Assembly (NCBI GenBank): GCA_902615625.1
Contig: CACMPM010000002.1
Span: 1 to 64,000 of the forward strand
Source of the DNA: an uncultured Alphaproteobacteria bacterium
GTDB lineage: Bacteria > Pseudomonadota > Alphaproteobacteria > HIMB59 > GCA-002718135
Length of the DNA: 64,000 bases
Direction of reading: 5' to 3'
The notes under the pieces are model-generated. The model ran no database searches and was not told the origin of the DNA. It was given only the letters and a program-made list of their open reading frames with translations. A program made the position numbers and the translations under genes. Positions 52,156-59,126 of the stretch are shown here, piece after piece (position 1 is the first letter of the stretch; the number at the start of each line of letters is the position of its first letter).

Positions 52156-54135
52156 ATGATTAAAATCTTCATTACAATTGTTTTATTAATTTTTACTCAA
52201 ATTAATTTATCGTTTGCAAATTGTGTAAAGGGTGACTGTAATAATGGTTTTGGAACTTGGGAAGATACTGATTTTAAATATATTGGGAAATTTGAAGATG
52301 GTTTATTTAATGGACAAGGTTCTGTAATATTTAATGATGGTGAAAGCTATACTGGTGAATTTAGTAATGATGCTTTTAATGGTTATGGCACATATATTTT
52401 TTTAAATGGAGATACATATATAGGTGATTTTTTAGATGGAGAATTTAGTGGATACGGTTTCTATTCATATAGTAATGGAGATTCATATGAAGGAGGATAC
52501 TTAAATAATCAACGAAATGGTTTTGGAAATTTTAAATTTAATGATGGTCAAGAATATATTGGTGAATTTAAAAATGATAATTATGATGGATTTGGCACAT
52601 TGTTTCTTAAAGATAATGATTTTTATGAAGGTGAATTTAAAAATGGTCTATTTAGTGGAATTGGTAAATATACATATGGAAATGGACTTATAGAGGAAGG
52701 TTATTATGAAGATGGTATATTTTTATCATCAAATTCTAATTCAGATAATTTAAATTTAGTTGAAGAATTTTTTAATATAGAATTATCTCAATCTACAATA
52801 AGAAATTTCATTGAAAATTCTGGAATTCAATATGAAGTTTTTGAGTTTATAGATGATAGTAGTTTTAGTATTAAAAATCTCTATTTTAATGACGGATTAT
52901 CAGAATTTATAATAGGTGAAGTTACACTAATTGATTTAGATTATTATGCTATAAACAAAATAAAAATAAATAGTGATATAAAAATAAACCTTTTTAAAAA
53001 GATTATAATAAAAGAATATTCATATAAAGAAGATAATATAGATCATTTTATAGATCATTTTGAAATTTCAAATTTAAATATAAATAATGCAAGTTTAATT
53101 TATGATTTTTTAAATTCTTTAGACTTTTTTAATTTTGAAAATATTTATTTTATTCTTGATACTATTAGTTTTAATGAATTTAAAATTAATGGAGCTAAAA
53201 TTGCTGAAATAGATTACTACGGTGAATGGGAAAAGTTCGAGTTTTCTAATTATAAAGATATGAATTTTGATTCAATTCTATTAGAAAATTATTATTTTAA
53301 TGAAGAAGAAGTTGAACAAGAAGGTGGACTAATTAAGATCAAAGATTTAACATTCAATAGACCTCAAAATATTTTATATTTTGACATTAATAATCCTGAT
53401 TTATTTTTTTCAATTTTTAAATCTTTAGATAATTTTGTTGCAAAAGATATCTGGTATAAAGACAAGTTTGATAATGTTACATTTAATGCAGATCTATATG
53501 AAATATCAAATTTAAATACTATAGAAATAGATAATTTATTTTTACCAGTTACATTAGATTTTAATTTAAAGAATGTAATTTTTTCAGATTTAGATTCTGA
53601 GATAAAAATGTATTTAAATATGTTAGGTTATGATGATTTATCTTTTGATTTAAACTTTCAATCATCAATAGATTATAAAAAAGAAGAATTTACTATTTCT
53701 CTTGATACCTCAGTTTATGATGCTTTTGGTTTAAAAACCAAATTAATATTTTCAAATTTAGATATAAATTCTATAAATTTTTCAAATGATATGGAATTAA
53801 TGGAATATTTTTCTAACGAATTTAAATTTAATTTATTTGAGATTGAATTTATAGATGAAGGAATGACAGACAAAATTTTCTTATTTGTAGATGAATTTTT
53901 TGGTTTCAAAAAAAATGATATAAAACAATTATTTTTACAAGAAATAAATAATGATGCAGATTTACAAAGTTCAATAGATATCAAATATCTTAAAAAAATG
54001 TTAAATTTTATTGATAATCCAGATAGTATTAAAATTACAATTCAGCCTCAAAACCCAATGTCTTTTAATGATATTTTAATTTATTCTATGAGCCCAGCCT
54101 TACTTATTGAAGAGCTTAATGTTAGTATTGAATAG
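52156..54135 (+). CDS. MORN-repeat exported protein with a large uncharacterised C-terminal region
   Basis: Signal peptide; repeats such as YIGKFEDGLFNGQGSVIFNDGESYTGEFSNDAFNGYGTYIFLNGDTYIGDFLDGEFSGYG; then ~430 aa with no recognised motif. Confidence 0.85.
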   Translation: MIKIFITIVLLIFTQINLSFANCVKGDCNNGFGTWEDTDFKYIGKFEDGLFNGQGSVIFNDGESYTGEFSNDAFNGYGTYIFLNGDTYIGDFLDGEFSGYGFYSYSNGDSYEGGYLNNQRNGFGNFKFNDGQEYIGEFKNDNYDGFGTLFLKDNDFYEGEFKNGLFSGIGKYTYGNGLIEEGYYEDGIFLSSNSNSDNLNLVEEFFNIELSQSTIRNFIENSGIQYEVFEFIDDSSFSIKNLYFNDGLSEFIIGEVTLIDLDYYAINKIKINSDIKINLFKKIIIKEYSYKEDNIDHFIDHFEISNLNINNASLIYDFLNSLDFFNFENIYFILDTISFNEFKINGAKIAEIDYYGEWEKFEFSNYKDMNFDSILLENYYFNEEEVEQEGGLIKIKDLTFNRPQNILYFDINNPDLFFSIFKSLDNFVAKDIWYKDKFDNVTFNADLYEISNLNTIEIDNLFLPVTLDFNLKNVIFSDLDSEIKMYLNMLGYDDLSFDLNFQSSIDYKKEEFTISLDTSVYDAFGLKTKLIFSNLDINSINFSNDMELMEYFSNEFKFNLFEIEFIDEGMTDKIFLFVDEFFGFKKNDIKQLFLQEINNDADLQSSIDIKYLKKMLNFIDNPDSIKITIQPQNPMSFNDILIYSMSPALLIEELNVSIE

Positions 54136-54248: not shown

Positions 54249-54305
54249 CATCGTTCATTTTGAATAATTCAAAACGGAAGTAAACGAAAGTTGAAGGAAC
54301 GCATG
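54249..54305 (+). ncRNA. Glutamine-riboswitch-like aptamer, copy 1 (glnA / Downstream-peptide motif class)
   Basis: CATCGTTCA-TTTTGAA/TAA/TTCAAAA-CGGAAGTA-AAC/GAAA/GTT-GAAGGAACGCATG; paired elements read by eye, matching remembered CGUUCA...CGGAAGUA...GAAGGAACGC consensus. Confidence 0.82.
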
Positions 54306-54316
54306 CAAGTTATTAA

Positions 54317-54373
54317 ATCGTTCAATCTGTATTTTACAGATCGGAAGTAAGCTAAAGCTGAAGGAACGCGGAT
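54317..54373 (+). ncRNA. Glutamine-riboswitch-like aptamer, copy 2
   Basis: ATCGTTCA-ATCTGTA/TTT/TACAGAT-CGGAAGTA-AGC/TAAA/GCT-GAAGGAACGCGG; stems differ from copy 1 while unpaired core is identical. Confidence 0.85.
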
Positions 54374-54387
54374 CTTATTATTAATTT

Positions 54388-54439
54388 CCATAGCTAGGCA
54401 TGAATTATAACGGATAAGAAAGGTTTGTTATAACTATGG
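54388..54439 (+). promoter_or_regulatory. Candidate expression-platform hairpin sequestering a start codon
   Basis: CCATAG(54388-54393)...TTATAAC(54405-54411)-15 nt-GTTATAACTATGG(54427-54439): 13 bp stem with an 11-nt 5' bulge; ATG at 54436 is inside the 3' arm. Confidence 0.65.
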
Positions 54440-54498
54440 TTAAAAAGTTAGATAATAAAAAATTAATCTATTCTAATCTCAAGAGGTTTAATGATTGA
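54436..54498 (+). CDS. Candidate 20-aa peptide downstream of the riboswitch pair (not in ORF track)
   Basis: ATG..TGA MVKKLDNKKLIYSNLKRFND; stop overlaps ATG of next gene (TGATG). Confidence 0.45.
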   Translation: MVKKLDNKKLIYSNLKRFND

Positions 54499-55904
54499 TG
54501 TTTAACGAAATGTATCAATCTGAGTCAGTTATAAGAAATCATTATAATAATATTAATGATTGGTTAGATCAAATGACTTCAAAAGTAATTCTTGAAAAGA
54601 ATGCTGAAGCTGAAACTCATTTTAGAAATATTGGAATTACATTTTCTACAAATAATGAAACATCAAGAGAAAGAATTATTCCGTTTGATTTAATTCCAAG
54701 GATATTTACTTATACTGAATGGTTAAGGTTAGAAAGAGGGGTAATCCAAAGAGCTAAAGCACTAAATGCTTTTCTAGCTGATATTTATAATCAAGGTGAA
54801 ATAATAAAAGCCAATATAATTCCTAAAGAAATTATTTACAAAAAAAAATCTTTTGAACCTTCTATGTTTGGTTTTTCTCCTCCTAGAGATATTTATAGCC
54901 CTATAATTGGTATTGATTTAGTTAGAACAGGTCCAAATGATTATTTTGTTTTAGAAGATAATTGTCGAACACCAAGTGGTGTTTCCTACATGCTAGAAAA
55001 TAGAGAAATAATGATGCGAATGTTTCCTGATTTATTTCATAACAATAGAGTAACACCTATAGATGACTACCCAACAAGACTTTTGCAAACATTGATGAGT
55101 TTAGCTCCTATTAAATGTGAAAATCCTGAACCAGTTTGCGTGTTACTTACACCTGGTCCTTTAAATAGCGCTTATTACGAACACAGTTTTTTATCAGATC
55201 AAATGGGTATTGAAATGGTTGAATCAACAGATTTATTTGTTGAAGGAAAATATCTTTATATGAAAACAGTTGATGGTCCAAAAAGAGTAGATGTTGTTTA
55301 TAGAAGAATAGATGACGATTTTTTAGATCCTTTATGTTTTAATCCTCAGTCTGTAATTGGTATTCCAGGAATTATGGATGTTTATAGAACAGGTGGCGTC
55401 AATATCTGTTCAGCACCTGGAGTAGGTATAGCTGATGACAAAGCAATTTATATTTATGTGCCTGAGATGATCAAATTTTATTTAGGTGAACAACCAATCT
55501 TAGATAATGTTGAAACATGGAATTGTGAAAAGGAACAAGAATTAAAATATGTTTTAGATAATATAAATAAACTTGTCGTAAAAGAAGTTGATGGATCTGG
55601 AGGTTATGGAATGTTAATAGGTCCAAAATCTTCTAAATCCACTATAGATGAATTTAAAACAAAACTCTCAACAAATCCAAAAGGATATATAGCTCAACCT
55701 TTACTTGATCTTTCATTTTCACCAACACTCATCAAAAATCAAGTTGAGGGAAGAAGAGTAGATTTACGACCATTTTGTTTAATTGGAGAGCAGGCTCAAT
55801 TAAGTTCTGGCGGTTTAACTAGAGTTGCGATGAATGAAGGTTCTTTTGTTGTTAATTCTAGCCAAGGAGGCGGTGTGAAAGACACATGGGTATTAGCTGA
55901 ATGA
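54498..55904 (+). CDS. Circularly permuted ATP-grasp family protein (listed ORF starts at TTG 54495)
   Basis: RVIQRAKALNAFLADIYNQ-type region (RGVIQRAKALNAFLADIYNQGEI); DYFVLEDNCRTPSGVSYMLENRE; VVYRRIDDDFLDPLCF; VNICSAPGVGIADDKAIY; VKEVDGSGGYGMLIGP. Confidence 0.95.
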   Translation: MFNEMYQSESVIRNHYNNINDWLDQMTSKVILEKNAEAETHFRNIGITFSTNNETSRERIIPFDLIPRIFTYTEWLRLERGVIQRAKALNAFLADIYNQGEIIKANIIPKEIIYKKKSFEPSMFGFSPPRDIYSPIIGIDLVRTGPNDYFVLEDNCRTPSGVSYMLENREIMMRMFPDLFHNNRVTPIDDYPTRLLQTLMSLAPIKCENPEPVCVLLTPGPLNSAYYEHSFLSDQMGIEMVESTDLFVEGKYLYMKTVDGPKRVDVVYRRIDDDFLDPLCFNPQSVIGIPGIMDVYRTGGVNICSAPGVGIADDKAIYIYVPEMIKFYLGEQPILDNVETWNCEKEQELKYVLDNINKLVVKEVDGSGGYGMLIGPKSSKSTIDEFKTKLSTNPKGYIAQPLLDLSFSPTLIKNQVEGRRVDLRPFCLIGEQAQLSSGGLTRVAMNEGSFVVNSSQGGGVKDTWVLAE

Positions 55905-55913
55905 GGAATAAAA

Positions 55914-56849
55914 ATGTTAAGTAGAACTGCTGAATATCTGTATTGGATCAGTCGTTATATGGAAAGAGCTGAAACAACAGCAAGGCTCTTAGATGTTGGT
56001 TATAGAATGTCTCTTTTTCCAAATCCAAGTGGTTATAATAATGAATGGGAATCAGTTTTATCTGCTGCTGGGGCAATTGAGGGGTATAAAAATAAATATG
56101 ATACAATTGAACAGAAAAATGTGGAAGATTATTTATTTTTTGATGAAAGTAATCCTTCGTCTGTTTACAATTGTATTCTTAATGCACGAAATAACGCATT
56201 AGTAGTTAGAACTTCCTTTACCCCTGAGTCTTGGTTAGCAATTAATAAAACTTATCAAGAGATACTAAACTTAAAAGAAAAAAAATTTATAAAATCTGAT
56301 TTACCTGATCTTACAGAGTGGACAATAGAACAAGTAAATTTATTTAGGGGATCATTAAGTTCTTTACTTAGAAATGATGGTTATAATTTCCTTTTTCTTG
56401 GTTTATTTATTGAAAGAGCAGATAATTCTGCCAGATTATTAGATGTAAAGTATTTTGTTTTATTACCAAAACCTCAATATGTAGGAGGCAATATCGATAA
56501 TATGCAATGGAGTATATTGCTTCGTTCTTTATCATCTTTTAGAGCTTTTAGATGGGCATACGATGGGAATATTACTGCAACTAAAATTGCTGATTTTTTA
56601 GTTTTAAATAATAATTGTCCTAGATCTTTAAGTTTTTGTATTCAAAATATTGTCAAACATTTAACTAACCTAACATGTAGTCCAGAAAAAGTTGGAAGAA
56701 TTTATAATAATTTAAAAGATCTAAATACTAAAATTCAAGAAGAAAAAATAGAAACTATTGTTGAATATGGTCTTCATCAATTTGTAACACAATTTATTAG
56801 AAAAATATCTAGTGTTGATAACGAAATACATAAGGAGTTTTTTAATTAA
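55914..56849 (+). CDS. Alpha-E domain-containing protein
   Basis: MLSRTAEYLYWISRYMERAETTARLLDVGYRM; FLFLGLFIERADNSARLLDVKYFVLL; downstream of CP-ATP-grasp gene. Confidence 0.93.
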   Translation: MLSRTAEYLYWISRYMERAETTARLLDVGYRMSLFPNPSGYNNEWESVLSAAGAIEGYKNKYDTIEQKNVEDYLFFDESNPSSVYNCILNARNNALVVRTSFTPESWLAINKTYQEILNLKEKKFIKSDLPDLTEWTIEQVNLFRGSLSSLLRNDGYNFLFLGLFIERADNSARLLDVKYFVLLPKPQYVGGNIDNMQWSILLRSLSSFRAFRWAYDGNITATKIADFLVLNNNCPRSLSFCIQNIVKHLTNLTCSPEKVGRIYNNLKDLNTKIQEEKIETIVEYGLHQFVTQFIRKISSVDNEIHKEFFN

Positions 56850-56850
56850 T

Positions 56851-57690
56851 ATGGAACTAATAATTGAACATACAACTAAATATGAATATAAAAATCCAGT
56901 TGCGGGATTAATTCAAACCACTAAACTGCATCCTTCGGAATATAATGGTCTTAAAATTTTAGAGTGGAATGTCCATAATGATTCAGCTAAAAAATCAAAA
57001 ATTTATCAGGATGGTGAAGCTAATAATATTCAAAGTTATACAAATACAAATAAGGTAAAAAAAATACAATTTACAGTTCTAGGAAAAGTCGAAACATTTG
57101 ATACGAAAGGAATTTACCAAAGTGCTTCTGATAAAATAGATCCATTAGTTTACTTAAGAGAATCAAATTTAACAAAAGCAAATGATAATATAAAAAATTT
57201 AGCTATTGAAGCTAAAAATGGTTTTAATGAAAATGAAAATTTGGAAACATCTCATAATTTGATGAATTTAGTAGCTGAAAAAATTGAATACAAGCCATTA
57301 ACTACAAATAATCAAACAACTGCAATTGAAGCATTTAAACAGAAAAAAGGAGTATGCCAGGACCAAGCACATATTATGATTGCAGCTGCAAAAACCCTTG
57401 GAATTCCTGCCAGATATGTAAATGGTTATATGCATAACAATTCTCATTCTTCAGAATTTCAATCTACACATGCTTGGGCTGAATTTTATATTAATGATTT
57501 AGGGTGGGTAGGCTTTGATCCAACAAATAAATGCAGTCCTGATGAAAGATACGTACGTGTTTCATGTGGGCTTGATGCTAGTTACGCATCACCTATTAAA
57601 GGTGTTTTTTATGGAAATATCAATAATGATGATGTGATAGAAAACTTAGATATACATGTACAAACATTAGAAAATAACTCTCAACAATAA
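56851..57690 (+). CDS. Transglutaminase-like family protein (listed ORF starts 56812; start 56851 preferred)
   Basis: IIEHTTKYEYKNPVAGLIQTTKLHPS; KKGVCQDQAHIMIAAAKTLGIPARYVNGYM; HAWAEFYINDLGWVGFDPTN (Cys-His-Asp). Confidence 0.94.
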   Translation: MELIIEHTTKYEYKNPVAGLIQTTKLHPSEYNGLKILEWNVHNDSAKKSKIYQDGEANNIQSYTNTNKVKKIQFTVLGKVETFDTKGIYQSASDKIDPLVYLRESNLTKANDNIKNLAIEAKNGFNENENLETSHNLMNLVAEKIEYKPLTTNNQTTAIEAFKQKKGVCQDQAHIMIAAAKTLGIPARYVNGYMHNNSHSSEFQSTHAWAEFYINDLGWVGFDPTNKCSPDERYVRVSCGLDASYASPIKGVFYGNINNDDVIENLDIHVQTLENNSQQ

Positions 57691-57745: not shown

Positions 57746-58108
57746 ATGTTTCAAAATAAAAAACAACTTCAGTATTTATGGATTTATAAACCTGAACTTA
57801 ATGATATTGCAAAAAGAATTGCAGAAGATCATACAAAATGGATGAAGGAAACACATACAAAGGAAGGTGATAAAGCACTTCTAATGTTAAATTGGTCTAT
57901 AGGTCCTGAATTTAAAGATGGAAATAAAACAGGCAATATGTCTTTGATCCTAACAGAGGTTTATGCAAATCAAGCAGGAATAGATAATCATTTTGAGCAA
58001 GCACAAAATAATGGAGCAATTTTTAGAGATGATTTTAGTGATTTTGAAAGTAAATGTGAGAATTTAGTAAAAATTAATAGTTCAGATATTATCCATTCAA
58101 TGTGGTAA
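57746..58108 (+). CDS. Hypothetical protein, 120 aa
   Basis: Complete ORF with strong AAGGAGGAAAT ribosome-binding site. Confidence 0.75.
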   Translation: MFQNKKQLQYLWIYKPELNDIAKRIAEDHTKWMKETHTKEGDKALLMLNWSIGPEFKDGNKTGNMSLILTEVYANQAGIDNHFEQAQNNGAIFRDDFSDFESKCENLVKINSSDIIHSMW

Positions 58109-58219
58109 ATATAATTTTTAATATCTAATTTATTTTTAAATAGATTTTAATAATCTTATTGTATTATTCAAACTACATATCTAAGTTAAATACTATATTT
58201 ATTTGAATTTATACATATT

Positions 58220-58615
58220 ATGGAAATTGAAAAAATTTTTAAAAATTTAATTTTAGCAGATTTTATTGTTATAATTTTAATGGTTATATCAGCCATGTAT
58301 CAACCATCAGAAATATCCAATCTTTATGAAAATTTAAATGACGGTTTACTATCCAATTATGAAAATTTTTCTCGAATTGTATCAATTAGTTTATTCTTTT
58401 TATATCTATTTACTTTAAATCTACTTTATCGATTTATTTCTTATGGTAAACCGATGTATTTATTTTTAGTAGTAGCTGGTATAGTTCTAAATTATTTTAG
58501 TGGTTCTGTCATCTATACTGCTTTTAGTGGAATGCTTGATCAAATAGGTGGTCTGATTAGTGGTGCAATTTTAATTCTTTTGTATTTTTCACCAGTTAAA
58601 GATAACTTTAGATAA
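58220..58615 (+). CDS. Hypothetical membrane protein, 131 aa (DUF4386-like topology)
   Basis: Four hydrophobic segments. Confidence 0.6.
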   Translation: MEIEKIFKNLILADFIVIILMVISAMYQPSEISNLYENLNDGLLSNYENFSRIVSISLFFLYLFTLNLLYRFISYGKPMYLFLVVAGIVLNYFSGSVIYTAFSGMLDQIGGLISGAILILLYFSPVKDNFR

Positions 58616-58727
58616 GAAATAACTAAGTTTTCTGCAATCAAATCAATATTTATGTATTTTTTTTTAAAAAATAGTTAAGATATATAAATAGGTCGGTCTA
58701 AACCCTTGTAAAAAAAAGACCATAAAT

Positions 58728-59126
58728 TTGATTATGGTAAAAACTTTAGCTAAAATTATTATTGGTTTGTTAAGTTTGTGGGCAATAGTATTTATAATTG
58801 CAGAGATTGCTGGTGTAACTATCTATTTTCCATTCACTATAGTTGAAAGACAAGAAATACCATATCATAGAATTGCTGCGGTCAGATTAGCTGTTTTTCT
58901 AACTTTTGCTTACTTTGGTTTTAGATATATTTTTTTTCAATCAGAAAAGCTTTATCCTATTCAGTTTTTAGAAATTTATATTAAATCATTTACAGTTTGT
59001 TGTTTATTTGTTTTTTACACTAGTCAAGTTGAATATAGAGAATACTATTTTGTTCTATTTTTATTTATTGTTTCATTGATATTGCATTACGCATCAAGAA
59101 ATAAAATAAGAAGTTATTTTAATTAA
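58728..59126 (+). CDS. Hypothetical membrane protein, 132 aa
   Basis: Complete ORF with four hydrophobic segments. Confidence 0.6.
   Translation: MIMVKTLAKIIIGLLSLWAIVFIIAEIAGVTIYFPFTIVERQEIPYHRIAAVRLAVFLTFAYFGFRYIFFQSEKLYPIQFLEIYIKSFTVCCLFVFYTSQVEYREYYFVLFLFIVSLILHYASRNKIRSYFN

Follow-up and report, generated by a model that had tools for sequence, protein, structure and literature searches.

Two RNA-like units stand in series upstream of an operon for ATP-grasp, Alpha-E and transglutaminase-like proteins in the window, the 64,000-nt stretch of alphaproteobacterial DNA analysed here, raising the question of which signal they sense and how it acts on these genes. A cmscan search returned two matches to the glutamine riboswitch model RF01739 here (gathering score 35 bits), aptamer 1 at 54250–54305 with 66.0 bits and aptamer 2 at 54317–54372 with 65.7 bits (E ~2e-12 for the whole window), each spanning the full covariance model; these and all leader and operon features given below lie on the forward strand. 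Thus two complete aptamers for one ligand class follow each other at 54250–54372. A preliminary description, made from the DNA letters, had put two units at this place and assigned them to a "glnA / Downstream-peptide" class. The location and the glnA half of the assignment hold, with RF01739 far above threshold, while the Downstream-peptide half does not: the Glutamine-II / Downstream-peptide model (RF01704) reached 16.4 bits in the window against a cut-off of 33 bits, and this identity was dropped. The stems quoted there (TTTTGAA/TTCAAAA versus ATCTGTA/TACAGAT, and AAC/GTT versus AGC/GCT) are present in the sequence, and the suggestion that their covariation marks a conserved RNA agrees with an alignment of 44 non-redundant tandem leaders. 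In this alignment, P2 and P3 of both aptamers covary, with two-sided changes at 15 pairs in 184 cells; 99.2% of the P2/P3 cells are paired, falling to 22–40% when the partners are slid by 1–3 columns. P1 provides no evidence of covariation because it is invariant across the tandem leaders, and the core CGTTCA/CGGAAGTA/GAAGGAACG is likewise invariant in all 44. The tandem pair is conserved clade-wide in orthologous leaders, which rules out a chance or isolated pair. Judged by its sequence, the window leader is a tandem type-1 glutamine riboswitch (RF01739) with glutamine as the predicted ligand. A shift of this RNA to a different ligand, or its persistence as a degenerate relic, is very improbable: ligand specificity is not readable from sequence alone, but the invariant core, the high RF01739 scores and the remaining targets, which belong to glutamine and ammonium metabolism, all argue against it.

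The operon had been described as encoding an ATP-grasp protein, an Alpha-E protein and a transglutaminase, and the Pfam domains agree. The first gene (54498–55904) encodes a circularly permuted ATP-grasp protein of type 2 (CP_ATPgrasp_2, PF14403, E 1e-152) of 468 aa, whose likely ATG is at 54498, the listed ORF starting at a TTG at 54495. It is followed by the genes for the Alpha-E protein (55914–56849; PF04168, E 2e-86) and the transglutaminase-like protein (56812–57690; PF01841 and PF08379). NCBIfam has no name for the operon proteins. This gene set has been described together with the proteasome-like Anbu, and peptide synthesis or modification was proposed as its function (PMC5666114, PMC3597751). 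No Anbu gene is found among the genes following the window operon, and the sole PF00227 match in the 88%-complete genome lies on another contig and has the size of HslV. Three small ORFs (120, 131 and 132 aa) lie downstream of the transglutaminase gene, at 57746–59126, and are not matched confidently by Pfam or NCBIfam; in a relative (genome G079, locus L343, 5930–7310) the operon is likewise followed by ORFs of comparable size and spacing. The gene upstream of the riboswitch (52156–54135) encodes a 659-aa protein with MORN repeats.

The host, an abundant marine alphaproteobacterium with a genome of 1.31 Mb (88% complete), belongs to the genus AG-337-I02, which appears in the literature as AEGEAN-169, order HIMB59, or SAR11 clade V (PMC8692485, PMC12965618). 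Six RF01739 matches in this genome form three tandem pairs; each of the other two pairs is located ahead of an ammonium transporter gene (marine subtype TIGR03644). Relatives have an additional tandem pair upstream of glnA, and in G079 glnB is the gene immediately ahead of glnA. RF01739 is carried by 106 of the 110 genomes of the window's family and, in a class sample of 385 genomes, was found only in this family and in a second one, f10. Within the genus, the tandem pair precedes every ATP-grasp ortholog with enough upstream DNA; a contig end removes aptamer 1 at two loci, and at one locus all upstream sequence is missing. Some near-complete relatives are without the ATP-grasp gene, so the operon is patchy in the clade.

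The same association recurs in f10, also an alphaproteobacterial family, in which 23 of 32 genomes carry RF01739 and all 23 have a single aptamer 3 to ~50 nt before the ATP-grasp start. One f10 locus has the same three operon genes, with glnB and glnA ~2 kb further on (L341). The f10 ATP-grasp proteins are ~60% identical to that of the window and form their own fully supported clade; the tree places the window's family with Pelagibacteraceae, which have no aptamer at these genes. Inheritance of the riboswitch with one ATP-grasp lineage was rejected, since the two families form separate clades with riboswitch-free groups between them. Because the proteins are only ~60% identical, the link between riboswitch and operon probably arose twice, two separate acquisitions being the simplest reading of the tree; an ancestral linkage followed by losses may also account for the distribution. 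Two other observations concern f10 genomes. An extra glutamine aptamer (L317, G550:C1:3262–3312) precedes a gene for a putative outer-membrane protein, and since G550 is 5% contaminated this aptamer may not belong to it. G547 contains three identical single aptamers (L337–L339) with identical downstream sequence encoding a phage-like protein, possibly phage DNA or contamination.

Pelagibacteraceae, which are without the glutamine riboswitch, have a conserved TGTCAATTTGGCAA upstream of the ATP-grasp gene at many loci. A search of four genomes placed the motif, exact or with one mismatch, upstream of an amt gene in one and of glnB in two, and in one case (L374) glutamine synthetase then follows the glnB that bears the motif; other matches in these four genomes fall within or close to sdh genes, perhaps by chance. 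A near-palindromic TGTCAATTTGGCA(A/T) lies upstream of the ATP-grasp operon, an amt gene and glnB (L086, L099, L098, L110, L363–L374), possibly a nitrogen-regulon operator. Pseudomonas putida on nitrate expresses its ATP-grasp (PP_2688) and Anbu (PP_2685) genes at levels 16- to 22-fold above those on ammonium (PMC8050072). Taken together, the recurrence in f10, the Pelagibacteraceae motif and the P. putida expression tie the operon to nitrogen status, and the ATP-grasp/Alpha-E/transglutaminase gene set very probably belongs to the response to nitrogen shortage.

How, then, are the two aptamers connected to the genes? The linker between them is only 17 nt long and is complementary to a conserved element, CCATAGCTAGGCATGA, located after aptamer 2 at 54388–54403. 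The proposed helix, which we call P0, has its 5' strand in the linker at 54302–54313 (CATGC at 54302–54306 and AGTTAT at 54308–54313) and its 3' strand in the element (ATAGCT at 54390–54395 and GCATG at 54398–54402). In the 44 aligned leaders, linker (CATGCAA..GTTAT) and element (CATARCTA..GCATG) are both conserved and mutually complementary; RNAalifold found CAUGC:GCAUG unprompted, and the minimum-energy fold of the window leader contains the whole P0 helix, enclosing aptamer 2. All 47 distinct leaders, which represent three gene classes, have the duplex in one common register; mean z is −3.8 for ATP-grasp, −4.2 for amt and −4.4 for glnA leaders, and the total folding energy of the window leader is unremarkable (z −1.15). 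The 16-mer pattern CCATAGCTANGCATGA of the element occurs in 90 of the 110 family genomes and, in the host genome, only at the three tandem leaders, and its reversed control gave no match. Since the linker pairs with the post-aptamer element, both aptamers probably share one downstream platform.

Tandem glutamine aptamers have been classified as pseudo-cooperative, with 157 doublets and 4 triplets reported (PMC9481103), and the window pair could accordingly be two independent riboswitches in series, with P0 incidental and the linker and the element serving as separate platforms. This would fit the near absence of two-sided changes in P0, whose covariation support is slight because most of its positions are invariant. 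We nevertheless consider independent switches rather unlikely, since the shared register extends over all 47 leaders and three gene classes, and the stretch between the aptamers contains no second gene-start element. In addition, an unusual glnA linker, AGTTTGAAAT (L013, with a similar one in L279), still forms P0 in a shifted register. The AUAGCU/AUAACU difference among elements also preserves P0 pairing.

Further features lie downstream of the element. A hairpin at 54405–54433 in the minimum-energy fold presents the Shine-Dalgarno-like AAGAAAGG (54416–54423) in its loop region, and by inspection its stem is re-formed with different bases in other subclades. A leader uORF of 20 codons follows (MVKKLDNKKLIYSNLKRFND, 54436–54498), its stop TGA overlapping the ATG of the ATP-grasp gene (TGATG); AAGAAAGG lies 12 nt from the uORF start, a distance longer than usual. 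A uORF of 16–25 codons is present in 47/47 distinct ATP-grasp leaders, and because its stop is close to the ATP-grasp start, often overlapping it, the two reading frames are likely to be translationally coupled. The element itself may reach the gene start: CCATAG can alternatively pair with CTATGG at the uORF start (54434–54439), and across leaders the element can pair with the amt Shine-Dalgarno, the glnA start codon or, in the main ATP-grasp subclade, the uORF start, the last pairing being weak outside this subclade. Cognate pairs of element and start have energies of −8.8 kcal/mol for amt and −7.7 kcal/mol for glnA, against −5.0 to −5.9 kcal/mol for most swapped pairs, the exception being the ATP-grasp element, which has nearly the amt-element sequence, with amt starts (−7.9 kcal/mol). 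Both P0 and the anti-start pairing use the element's AUA. An intrinsic terminator was rejected as the platform, since leaders read by eye have no clear U-runs after the post-P0 hairpins.

Our main reading, to which we give a probability of about 70%, is that the tandem glutamine riboswitch places the operon in a nitrogen regulon with amt and, in relatives, glnA, and switches it off through the shared platform and the uORF. Both aptamers of the window RNA would bind glutamine, perhaps cooperatively, and the linker and post-aptamer element would form P0, joining them to one downstream platform. With abundant glutamine, the ligand-bound fold would be coupled to hiding of the uORF Shine-Dalgarno and start region, and since the uORF ends on the ATP-grasp start, translation of the operon would drop with that of the uORF. 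When glutamine is scarce, the operon would be translated, suggesting a role in nitrogen handling at low glutamine.

That glutamine turns translation off is the most likely direction. amt and glnA are normally needed at low glutamine, and repression is favoured by what the co-regulated genes do, namely ammonium acquisition and glutamine synthesis. It is also favoured by two f10 leaders, L329 and L334, whose ATG comes so soon after the aptamer that the GAAGGA of the aptamer core must serve as the Shine-Dalgarno; in the models, formation of the aptamer lowers the accessibility of GAAGGA, from 0.80 to 0.45 in one leader and from 0.75 to 0.53 in the other. In the other f10 leaders, folds with P1 blocked or forced showed unchanged Shine-Dalgarno accessibility, so that the comparison is uninformative on direction for them. 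The opposite sign, in which glutamine would activate the operon by stabilizing P0 and freeing the gene start from the element, appears improbable. Its appeal is that P0 encloses aptamer 2, so the ligand could favour P0, at the expense of an anti-start pairing that overlaps it in the element, and that the well-studied gifB switch of Synechocystis and type-2 switch of Prochlorococcus both activate expression (PMC6316151). Activation is, however, difficult to reconcile with the rise of the P. putida ATP-grasp without ammonium (PMC8050072), with the position of the Shine-Dalgarno inside the aptamer in L329 and L334, or with the needs met by amt and glnA.

A more far-reaching proposal, which we put forward tentatively and at somewhat less than even odds, is that P0 makes the two aptamers one composite cooperative sensor, that this module was copied across the ammonium/glutamine regulon of an abundant marine clade (glnA, two amt genes and the ATP-grasp operon), and that the operon represents a nitrogen-scarcity pathway which three marine lineages have each linked to nitrogen status through different regulators. 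For a riboswitch class whose tandem members have so far been treated as independent units, it provides a two-aptamer architecture that is open to testing.

Glutamine aptamers are also found in viruses. At least 120 viral stretches (viral_contigs L155–L274) contain the glutamine aptamer core; in some it occurs as tandem copies joined by linkers of 6–11 nt, and often a Shine-Dalgarno is present that could pair with sequence just after the aptamer; glutamine riboswitches are known from the marine phages Melnitz and Mosig (PMC9004378). Tandem phage aptamers were discarded as the source of the linker because phage linkers differ. Spread of the post-aptamer element by phages was discarded as well: eight viral contigs match the 16-mer, and since none of them has aptamers we take the matches as chance.

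The aptamer class and the tandem arrangement are already known, while the target operon, the host regulon and the composite architecture appear to be new within the literature searched. According to a 2018 review (PMC6316151), the glutamine riboswitches seen ahead of glnA and amt in environmental sequences lacked a cultured host, and the open literature searched (reviews and other open papers) contains no report of a glutamine riboswitch in the AEGEAN-169 clade or on an ATP-grasp operon. The present results place leaders of the glnA/amt type in genomes of this clade. They also suggest glutamine scarcity as a concrete physiological signal for a widespread, uncharacterised ATP-grasp/Alpha-E/transglutaminase system, backed by two riboswitch lineages, by the motif that the operon has in common with nitrogen genes in SAR11 proper, and by published expression in P. 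putida.

Among known systems, the Anbu/amidoligase operon (PMC5666114, citing Iyer et al. 2009) has adjacent ATP-grasp, Alpha-E and transglutaminase genes, as does the window, but the window is without Anbu, and control by a glutamine riboswitch is not described for that operon in the literature searched. The marine-phage riboswitches (PMC9004378) have this aptamer too, in viruses that infect streamlined marine bacteria, and tandem copies occur in viral contigs, although with short linkers, no post-aptamer element and other genes downstream. Glutamine-II / Downstream-peptide RNAs (RF01704) also sense glutamine and also lie 5' of a small ORF, like the window leader. The gifB riboswitch of Synechocystis (PMC6316151) is of the same aptamer class and controls nitrogen metabolism, but it activates at high glutamine, whereas the window leader most likely represses. 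With the type-1 leaders of glnA (RF01739) the window shares the core sequence and three-helix structure; it differs in its alphaproteobacterial host, in a target operon not named in the literature searched, and in its fixed linker, enclosing helix and post-aptamer element. The pseudo-cooperative tandem glutamine riboswitches (PMC9481103) likewise have two complete aptamers in series, whereas the window linker pairs around aptamer 2, suggesting that here both aptamers act on a shared platform.
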